64,000 bases of DNA from Oscillospiraceae bacterium (GTDB taxonomy: Bacteria; Bacillota; Clostridia; Oscillospirales; Oscillospiraceae): assembly GCA_015067615.1 (NCBI GenBank), contig SVMD01000004.1:787-64786 (forward strand). The letters run 5' to 3'. The notes beneath the pieces are model-generated. The model worked only from the letters and a program-made list of their open reading frames with translations. It did not search any database and was not told where the DNA came from. The position numbers and the translations under genes were made by a program. This document shows positions 29,272 through 47,012 of the stretch, piece after piece; the stretch's first letter is position 1; every line of letters starts with the position of its first letter.

Positions 29272-29405
29272 CTTGTTGTGATGATTCGAAAATGCAAAAC
29301 CGCTGCTTGCGCAGAGGATAAGGGAATCGATAAAATCAAGGTGTCGATCCCGTCGAGCCGGGATTGCCGACAAAGCGCTCATCCTCCGTACACCAGTGCT
29401 GCACT
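29272..29405. repeat. Orphan copy of the tRNA-end multi-hairpin element (locus D)
   Basis: Contains ggtgtcgatcccgtcgagcc, identical to locus A, and a tRNA-Gln-like 3' remnant gcagaggataagggaatcga. Confidence 0.6.
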
Positions 29406-29927
29406 TCAAGGATCCTGTGCGGCAAGAAGCTTGATTTTATCAAAAAACGCCTGTTTCCCGGCTGTATATTTCCTCCTGTCATCAGAATACAGCTTATACA
29501 AATGCTTTTTCAATTCTTCGTATTCTTTTGCATATTCTGAATGTGTCCGTAAAAAATCCCGAAACTGTATTTGCTCATAAAACAGCGTCGTATTCTTTGA
29601 TGCATAGCAGTGAACGTGCTGCAGAGAAACACCATTCTCCCCTTTTTTCAAAAACAAATACTTACCTGGCGCCACTTCGCCATAATAAATGTATTTGTTT
29701 TCTTCCATTCTGCGAAATATATGTTCTGTCATTTTCCGAAACACAATGGCCAAATCCAGCATCGGCTTTGCCATAATCCCTGGGATCGCTGTGCTTCCAA
29801 CATGTTCTATTGCAACTATTTCATCACCAAATTCTGCCAGAAAGTGCTCTTTTACATCACCATATTCCTCCGCCCATGCATCACTGTGAGGCATCAGAAT
29901 CACCTCATTTTTAGGTACACCGAGCAT
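29406..29927 (-). CDS. GrpB family protein (UPF0157 nucleotidyltransferase-like)
   Basis: VEHVGSTAIPGIMAKPMLDLAIV; RDFLRTHSEYAKEYEELK. Confidence 0.9.
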   Translation of the reverse strand: MLGVPKNEVILMPHSDAWAEEYGDVKEHFLAEFGDEIVAIEHVGSTAIPGIMAKPMLDLAIVFRKMTEHIFRRMEENKYIYYGEVAPGKYLFLKKGENGVSLQHVHCYASKNTTLFYEQIQFRDFLRTHSEYAKEYEELKKHLYKLYSDDRRKYTAGKQAFFDKIKLLAAQDP

Positions 29928-30049
29928 AATACACACCTACTTTCTTTATTTTCTTTTTACATCTGTAGGATTGTTTTGCGACATAGGCTAATTATATACT
30001 GCTTCAGATTATAACACAAGGCCGTTGCCATCGCAGCATTTTGCCAGAG

Positions 30050-30500
30050 TGAAACGCCGGCAGATGGGTTCGAGCTTCCCCGTTGAACATTTCTGCAACA
30101 AAAATGTCCCTGCGCCCACACCATCCGGATGCGTTCGCAAGGACATGGATTCTCCCACAGGCCCGCCCTCTTAGGTGCTTGGGAAACCTGGTCGAAGGTG
30201 TCGATCCCGTCGAGCCCTCAGGCATACGCGCTATCCGGCACTACTGCAACCTAAATGATCTTCCGCCTACATCCGTACCGGATGCATTCGGAAGATCATG
30301 GATTCTCCCACGGGCTAAAAAGTGTCCACCGGACACTTTTTGCACCAGTGTGCGCATTGTATTATTGTATGGTTGCCACCGGCAACCATCAAGATTATTA
30401 ATCCGCTGCGCGGAGCACCACTGGTGCCGCCCTTTCGAATCCGTCCTCATCCTCTGCCAAAAAGAAAAGCCACCCTGTCGGGTGGCTTTTCTTTTTGGCA
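30050..30500. repeat. tRNA-end multi-hairpin element (locus A), adjoining tRNA-Gln
   Basis: Nested stems GATCTTCC/GGAAGATC, AAAAAGTGTCC/GGACACTTTTT, GCACCAGTG/CACTGGTGC, ATGGTTGCC/GGCAACCAT, bounded by GGATTC/GAATCC matching the tRNA T-arm. Confidence 0.8.
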
Positions 30501-30569
30501 GAGGATGAGGGATTCGAACCCCCGCGAACGGAGTCAGAGTCCGGTGTGCTACCGTTACACTAATCCTCT
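30496..30569 (-). tRNA. tRNA-Gln (anticodon CTG)
   Basis: Minus strand AGAGGATTAGTGTAACGGTAGCACACCGGACTCTGACTCCG...GGTTCGAATCCCTCATCCTCTGCCA folds as a cloverleaf. Confidence 0.92.
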
Positions 30570-43679: not shown

Positions 43680-43900
43680 GAGTGGACGATATAGGACTCG
43701 ATAGAATTAAGGTGTTGCGCCCGTCGATGTATTATTGAATGGTTGCCACCGGCAACCATTCGGATTTTGATCCGCTGCGCGAAGCACCACGGGCGCAAGC
43801 AGGTGTCCACCGGACACCTGCATTTAAATTGTTCGAGTCCTATTTCTAATACCATACCAAAAAGAAAAACCACGCCGAAAGGCGTGGTTTTCTTTTTGGT
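43680..43900. repeat. tRNA-end multi-hairpin element (locus B), adjoining tRNA-Val
   Basis: Stems TTGCGCCCGT/ACGGGCGCAA, ATGGTTGCC/GGCAACCAT, GCAGGTGTCC/GGACACCTGC; bounded by ATAGGACTCGA / TTCGAGTCCTAT copies of the tRNA T-arm. Confidence 0.82.
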
Positions 43901-43973
43901 GGACGATATAGGACTCGAACCTATGACCTTCCGCACGTCAAGCGGATGCTCTAGCCAGCTGAGCTAATCGTCC
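43897..43973 (-). tRNA. tRNA-Val (anticodon GAC)
   Basis: Minus strand GGACGATTAGCTCAGCTGGCTAGAGCATCCGCTTGACGTGCGGAAGGTCATAGGTTCGAGTCCTATATCGTCCACCA. Confidence 0.93.
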
Positions 43974-46559: not shown

Positions 46560-46937
46560 AAAAAAGGGATTGCGTCTACCGAACTCTCTGCAAAGTCTGA
46601 ACGGCTTCAATCCACATCCGTACCGGATGCGTCTTGAAGCCAGAGGGACTCTCCCACGGCCTAAAAACAGTCCACCGGACTGTTTTTACCCTCCCTTCGG
46701 TCGGGCCGGCCTTTCGAGTCCCGTCCGGTCCAAAAAGAAAAAAGGGAGGCCGAAGCCTCCCTTTTCTTTTTGGTACACCGGAAGGGACTCGTTTGCATTT
46801 CTGCCCCGTTGGGGCAGAAAATATTGTGTTGCCGCCGTCGAGCCGGCGGCAAGCGGCGCTCATCCGCACCGCATTGAAATGTTCGAGTCCCTCCGGGCAG
46901 CAAAAAAGCGGCTGCCCGAACGGGCAACCGCTTTTTT
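46560..46937. repeat. tRNA-end multi-hairpin element (locus C), two modules in tandem adjoining tRNA-Arg
   Basis: Stems GGCTTCAA/TTGAAGCC, TAAAAACAGTCC/GGACTGTTTTTA, TTTCTGCCCC/GGGGCAGAAA, TTGCCGCCG/CGGCGGCAA; two copies of GGTACACCGGAAGGGACTCG and two terminator hairpins. Confidence 0.82.
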
Positions 46938-47012
46938 GGTACACCGGAAGGGACTCGAACCCCCAACCCTCGGAACCGGAATCCGATGCTCTATCCATTG
47001 AGCCACCGGTGC
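46937..47012 (-). tRNA. tRNA-Arg (anticodon CCG)
   Basis: Minus strand GCACCGGTGGCTCAATGGATAGAGCATCGGATTCCGGTTCCGAGGGTTGGGGGTTCGAGTCCCTTCCGGTGTACCA. Confidence 0.93.

Follow-up and report, generated by a model that had tools for sequence, protein, structure and literature searches.

Behind the tRNA-Gln(CTG) gene of an Oscillospiraceae bacterium lies a run of hairpins whose outer ends match the T-arm of that same tRNA, and the locus raises the question of whether such a structure is an RNA, a mobile DNA element or a by-product of replication. The window analyzed here is the whole 64,000-nt stretch surrounding it (GCA_015067615.1, contig SVMD01000004.1, positions 787-64,786 of the forward strand), and all coordinates refer to this window. 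The multi-hairpin element reported in the preliminary description, with its T-arm-matching ends and its tRNA-like right end, was found in place [Table 1]. The array to which it belongs reaches farther than first described, from about 30500 to 29310, and includes a GrpB-family gene and a displaced tRNA-Gln 3' end. Read in the sense of the tRNA, the gene closes with ...GGTTCGAATCCCTCATCCTCTGCCA and the terminator hairpin comes next, forming a palindrome of two perfect 31-nt arms (30445-30475 and 30480-30510) that extends into the tRNA-Gln 3' end and is the longest hairpin of the locus. The first hairpin of the element (30342-30427, minus strand) is closed by a stem pairing 30342-30350 with 30419-30427, and a conserved GCCCGTGGGAGA separates the AAAAAGTGTCC-GGT-GGACACTTTTT hairpin from the direct T-arm half. 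Over the whole window, perfect inverted repeats with 9-nt arms fell into 26 groups, compared to 0-2 in Markov-1 random windows, an excess of approximately 10-fold or more.

Table 1 Features of the tRNA-Gln, tRNA-Val and tRNA-Arg arrays in the 64,000-nt window.
Feature	Coordinates	Strand	Basis
tRNA-Gln(CTG), host tRNA of the array	30496..30569	-	ARAGORN + Rfam RF00005
Palindromic terminator: tRNA 3' end, CCA, A/T-rich terminator hairpin, inverted acceptor-end copy	30445..30510	.	repeat search
Inverted T-arm copy GGATTCGAA, left end of the element	30434..30442	-	sequence; matching test over 64 elements
Type II element at tRNA-Gln	30300..30442	-	covariance model R2, 65.9 bits
Element Y insert (dispersed repeat) in the loop of the 30342-30350/30419-30427 stem	30351..30418 (approx.)	-	sequence
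Hairpin AAAAAGTGTCC-GGT-GGACACTTTTT, conserved CC-GGT-GG loop	30317..30341	-	repeat search
Direct T-arm half GAATCC, right end of the element	30300..30305	-	sequence
Third hairpin, locus-specific stem ATGATCTTCC/GGAAGATCAT	30255..30299	-	repeat search
Degraded second copy of the right half of type II	30088..30162	-	direct repeats
GrpB-family gene inside the tRNA-Gln array	29406..29936	-	Pfam PF04229, E 6.8e-35
Type I element, distal half (second hairpin + right end)	29323..29384	-	model R1, 22.9 bits; sequence
Displaced tRNA-Gln 3' end TCGATTCCCTTATCCTCTGCG	29310..29330	-	sequence
Type I element behind tRNA-Val(GAC) 43897-43973 (locus B), element Y in second loop	43694..43840	-	model R1, 86.4 bits
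Displaced tRNA-Val 3' end	43682..43701	-	sequence
Type I element directly behind tRNA-Arg(CCG) 46937-47012 (locus C)	46785..46890	-	model R1, 64.4 bits
Displaced tRNA-Arg 3' end with CCA, then next terminator	46771..46791	-	sequence
Type II element, second unit of the tRNA-Arg array	46646..46721	-	model R2, 100.3 bits
Third hairpin of the second tRNA-Arg unit, stem GGCTTCAA/TTGAAGCC	46603..46641	-	sequence

The two sister loci of the preliminary description, located behind tRNA-Val and tRNA-Arg, proved real, and both (the latter with two units) are built in the same way as the tRNA-Gln locus. The dispersed repeat that we call element Y has entered the hairpin loops of two tRNA elements, that of the tRNA-Gln locus [Table 1] and the H2 loop at the tRNA-Val locus (43730-43800). 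It reads GGTGGTGCTCCGCGCAGCG...hairpin with GCCGGTGGC..., has the same CC-GGT-GG hairpin loop as the tRNA elements, and occurs in about 15 copies away from tRNAs (L007-L028), where it sits inside MITE-like units flanked by AAATTATCGTTTA and TAAACGATAATTT.

Each unit measures about 150 bp, carries neither an integrase nor any other gene, and consists, in order, of a terminator, an inverted copy of the host T-arm, two to three perfect hairpins and a direct copy of the tRNA 3' end, the terminator standing between tRNA and element. The loops of the hairpins are conserved and their stems covary freely. Two types share this architecture: type I, GGAYTYGAA-linker-AAATGC-hairpin(CC-GGT-GG)-hairpin(GCTCGA loop)-CACCTTAATT-...-CRARTCC, and type II, GGAYTYGAAAGGCCG-hairpin-hairpin(CC-GGT-GG)-GGCCGTGGGAGA-RTCC. 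The fidelity with which the ends follow the local tRNA was scored on 64 distinct type I elements having a tRNA less than 500 nt upstream, a set that covers 24 tRNA kinds at a median distance of 51 nt. As proposed from the tRNA-Gln locus, the ends copied the adjacent T-arm: the first seven bases of the left end were its exact reverse complement in 57 of the 64 elements, and the last seven bases of the right end an exact copy in 58, compared to maxima of 25 (inverted) and 24 (direct) over 1000 shuffles of the tRNA assignment. These shuffles and the Markov-1 windows exclude chance as the source of the end matches and of the inverted repeats. The inverted copy spans the T-loop and T-stem only. The direct copy has an abrupt start at C56, within the T-loop, behind 24 tRNA kinds; it agrees with its own tRNA in 81-98% of cases over 15 positions (91-98% just after the start), and in ~67-75% from there up to the end of the acceptor stem. 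Site-specific integration into a tRNA gene is recognized by a whole tRNA and, beyond it, a displaced 3' fragment that starts sharply (PMC4383910).

The compensating stem changes around conserved loops that had been noted at the three loci of the window were recovered in 112 distinct aligned sequences, in which 96.7% of the cells were paired and 22 of the 26 pairs showed two-sided changes. The covariation score amounted to 0.579, compared to 0.163 upon shuffling and at most 0.082 with slid partners; fitting the alignment to the model favors the structure somewhat, and the slid controls were nonetheless far off. RNA under selection tolerates G-U pairs on its own strand. The stem cells of the elements comprised 2717 Watson-Crick pairs, 20 G-U pairs and 22 A-C mismatches, whereas 115 tRNAs of these genomes yielded 1248, 121 and 3, respectively, in their acceptor and T-stems. 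Because G-U and A-C are equally rare, unlike in tRNA stems, the pairing is maintained in DNA, be it through recognition of a hairpin or cruciform or through template-switch correction, and a small RNA finds no support here. The stems are the variable part (mean pairwise identities of 0.63 and 0.50), as is the 3' linker (0.62), in contrast to the conserved 5' linker (0.93), inner CC (0.99) and loops (0.82 and 0.77). We read this pattern as pointing to recognition of the folded structure together with loop and linker sequence, since the loops are spared, which mutation alone would not do.

That the elements are nevertheless structured non-coding RNAs, or 3'-trailer elements that regulate tRNA maturation or capture readthrough transcripts, would agree with the strong covariation around conserved loops and with the constant position behind the tRNA. 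We consider this very improbable in view of the G-U pairs being no more frequent than A-C mismatches, of the terminator that separates tRNA from element, and of the units missing behind the same tRNA in congeners. Nor does any Rfam family describe them; none reached its cut-off on the element, and the only matches elsewhere were to tRNA, 5S rRNA and a purine riboswitch. The element is a clear example of how a structure can pass RNA covariation tests and yet be kept at the DNA level; comparing G-U with A-C separates RNA from DNA pairing and should be run on other candidate structured RNAs.

The further copies expected in this genome and its relatives were abundant. A reading of the sequence past every tRNA gene of this genome (39 by model count; element copy counts come from model searches) showed an element ~50 nt beyond the 3' end of at least 18 of them, some with two to three units. 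Most members of an uncultured Oscillospiraceae genus carry related elements: the type I covariance model matched in 29 of 36 congeners and in none of 24 genomes from other families of the order, while type II was found in 17 of the 24 congeners searched, in this genome and in one genome of another family. The latter match is genuine, since it is located behind a tRNA-Tyr with a matching T-arm. A scan of 85,488 species with the type I pattern returned 24 places. Of these, 21 were in MAGs of Oscillospiraceae or of other Clostridia, many of which bear names pointing to ruminant gut samples; the remaining three (in Paraburkholderia, Pandoraea and one Bacillota MAG, L141) lie within coding sequence and were dismissed as chance matches. 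In one 99%-complete congener, no elements were detected and ordinary terminators follow the tRNAs. Presence was patchy at tRNA-Val(GAC), which is followed by an element in some congeners and by a plain, unrelated terminator in others. The terminators of the element carriers resemble one another at this locus, and the terminator thus appears to belong to the element. Across several species, elements found at one and the same tRNA seem orthologous, and movement may therefore be rare.

Tandem arrays of tRNA-end/terminator/element units also occur, with regular spacing and near-identical units; one behind tRNA-Ser has three units of ~165 bp, and another, with tRNA-Trp ends, has four of 170 bp. Arrays without genes, just 150-700 bp in size, are numerous. 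In others, genes lie between successive elements, encoding a DUF4417 protein (L158), a short-chain dehydrogenase (SDR; L162), an HTH regulator (L238), small membrane proteins and proteins of unknown function (L234), or a barnase-type RNase and Barstar (L140). In this last cassette (L140:474-1474), a Phage_Mu_F-like domain is fused to the barnase-type RNase and the Barstar gene follows, in the manner of a toxin-immunity pair. PADLOC returned no anti-phage match on ten cassette proteins. The DUF4417 cassette stands behind tRNA-Leu(GAG) in one genome and behind tRNA-Arg(CCG) in another, with 94.5% identity over 1750 nt. The identity runs from the tRNA 3' end to inside the closing CNCGNACCA, the boundaries fall at CCA ends, and the inner T-arm/acceptor copy is of the tRNA-Leu type in both genomes. 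This was the only clear transfer between tRNAs, and it could instead represent a rearrangement. The displaced tRNA 3' fragment, the tandem arrays, the gene cassettes and the genus-wide occurrence all go beyond the preliminary description.

Other features of the arrays were seen in passing. An element with a tRNA-Ala-type end lies ~700 nt behind tRNA-Ser(GCT) (L092/L108; G000:C7, ~12465), a possible second transfer or else a rearrangement. Conserved modules near the cassette ends of tRNA-Leu/Arg arrays (L162, L156, L158, L251 and L096) and of tRNA-Tyr arrays (L234 and L094), such as a hairpin GTTGGTA...AAAAGTCCTATAAGAACACTCGCACCA (Leu) and ATTTAGTTCAAA...TACATTAAGTTCAAAACTGCC (Tyr), may be second recombination sites.

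Displaced tRNA fragments being the normal mark of island integration (PMC4383910), the units might be attachment-site scars left by larger phages or mobile elements that use tRNA T-loops, the genes between them being ordinary island debris. A viral contig with an element at its edge and a transposase and phage integrase beyond, as well as a recombinase-like C-terminus directly before one array, are in line with such an origin. We nonetheless hold it to be distinctly unlikely: the units behind 24 tRNA kinds belong to a single structural family with common hairpins, a likeness not to be expected among leftovers of different integrases, and many arrays are short and without genes. A phage origin of the elements themselves was rejected, phage records having yielded no match; two viral contigs fitting the type I pattern were discarded, one resembling a host tRNA-Gly locus and the other a prophage edge, and 12 viral matches to the type II pattern had no tRNA gene and looked like chance.

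The main rival requires neither a recombinase nor a function. A stalled polymerase that switches template would copy the tRNA end backwards across the quasi-palindrome of terminator and tRNA; inverted copies and perfect stems would be made and repaired in this way, and unequal exchange between the direct tRNA ends would then produce tandem duplications. The perfect 31-nt palindrome through the terminator and the near identity of tandem units fit this process, and DNA-level correction would give stem pairing free of G-U bias; perfect stems are known to arise and persist through template switching (PMC8794818). As a full explanation, we judge it rather unlikely: mutation alone fails to predict loops and a 5' linker that stay conserved across ~30 species while the stems diverge, or one and the same T-loop start base for the direct copies behind 24 tRNA kinds, and it leaves unexplained the genes between units and the passage of a cassette from tRNA-Leu to tRNA-Arg. 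Even if recombination is real, template switching probably helps to keep arms and stems perfect.

On balance, we think it somewhat more likely than not that the units are very small, non-autonomous integrative DNA elements (~150 bp each) that are anchored at the 3' ends of tRNAs and double as a platform for gene cassettes. This reading is based on the T-arm matches, the C56 start, the covarying stems with pairing at the DNA level, the arrays and the genes between units, the Leu/Arg cassette and the patchy presence at tRNA-Val. Speaking against it are the failure to find a dedicated recombinase, the lack of excised circles in the assemblies, the single clear transfer between tRNAs and the orthologous look of elements at one tRNA. 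A recombinase acting in trans would cut in the T-loop or near the acceptor/CCA end, would recognize the folded or cruciform hairpins as the integron integrase does folded attC, and would add, remove or transfer units together with gene cassettes. The enzyme has perhaps been lost, in which case the present arrays are perhaps sedentary.

No dedicated recombinase was found. The tyrosine recombinases seen in this genome resemble XerC/XerD or are integrases of the usual island kind, and XerC/XerD-like genes were present in genomes with and without elements. The best score to the integron integrase model TIGR02249 among four tyrosine recombinases of this genome was 124 bits (cut-off, 265), all four fitting XerC/XerD or island integrases better. 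No integrase was found in the cassettes examined, nor was an excised circle visible in the assemblies. A mover of the RAYT/IS200 type was rejected, the Y1 transposase (PF01797) being present in two and missing from five of the seven element-bearing genomes tested. G034, a 98%-complete congener devoid of type I elements, showed a single tyrosine recombinase and no XerC/XerD-like match. At L164 and L165, read by eye, one array is preceded by the apparent C-terminal part of a gene for a large serine recombinase and a second by a similar terminal sequence, an arrangement that may reflect an integrative element targeting the tRNA/array junction. Host Xer, a large serine recombinase and a lost enzyme are all candidates for the mover.

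A bolder, tentative extension of the integrative reading, which we regard as possible, is that of a new gene-capture system in which tRNA genes act as anchors (the role of attI) and T-arm-copying hairpin units as cassette sites (the role of attC), served by a recombinase other than that of integrons, with nearly every tRNA gene able to grow its own array. If so, a common group of gut bacteria would hold many small cassette arrays distributed over its tRNA genes rather than one integron, a hitherto overlooked route of gene acquisition. Our literature search, which covered few subscription journals, found no published description of these elements.

How, then, do the elements relate to known systems? 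They resemble tRNA-integrated islands of the Islander type in that the tRNA is kept whole, a 3' fragment beginning at a fixed point of the tRNA is displaced downstream, and tandem arrays occur. They differ in their small size, in having neither integrase nor genes of their own, in the single structural family found behind 24 tRNA kinds, and in adding an inverted half-site and conserved DNA hairpins. The Islander search, as summarized in PMC4383910 from Williams 2002, required an integrase gene and therefore would not list them; any island finder making this demand would miss them. REP/BIME and other bacterial stem-loop repeats are likewise short, dispersed hairpin DNAs, but the strict tRNA location, the T-arm copying and the gene cassettes set the present elements apart, as does the absence of the Y1 transposase from most genomes tested. 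IMEX-type elements, which use the host XerC/XerD, similarly need no integrase of their own, but no dif-like site was established at the element junctions beyond a resemblance by eye. With integrons and CALIN arrays, the elements have in common tandem units, genes between structured repeats, folding at the DNA level, the frequent lack of a nearby integrase, and cargo that includes a toxin-antitoxin-like pair. Genes and folded sites alternate in tandem at L158, L162, L140, L234 and L238, and may move as single units. The core boxes of attC are RYYYAAC and GTTRRRY, whereas the outer arms of the elements, GGAYTYG...CRARTCC, copy the host T-arm, and the arrays are anchored behind tRNA genes. Because no integrase, no attC end and no integron integrase was found, we place the elements as a variant of these systems, one that falls outside the definition of both tRNA-integrated islands and CALIN-type arrays while mixing the features of the two.
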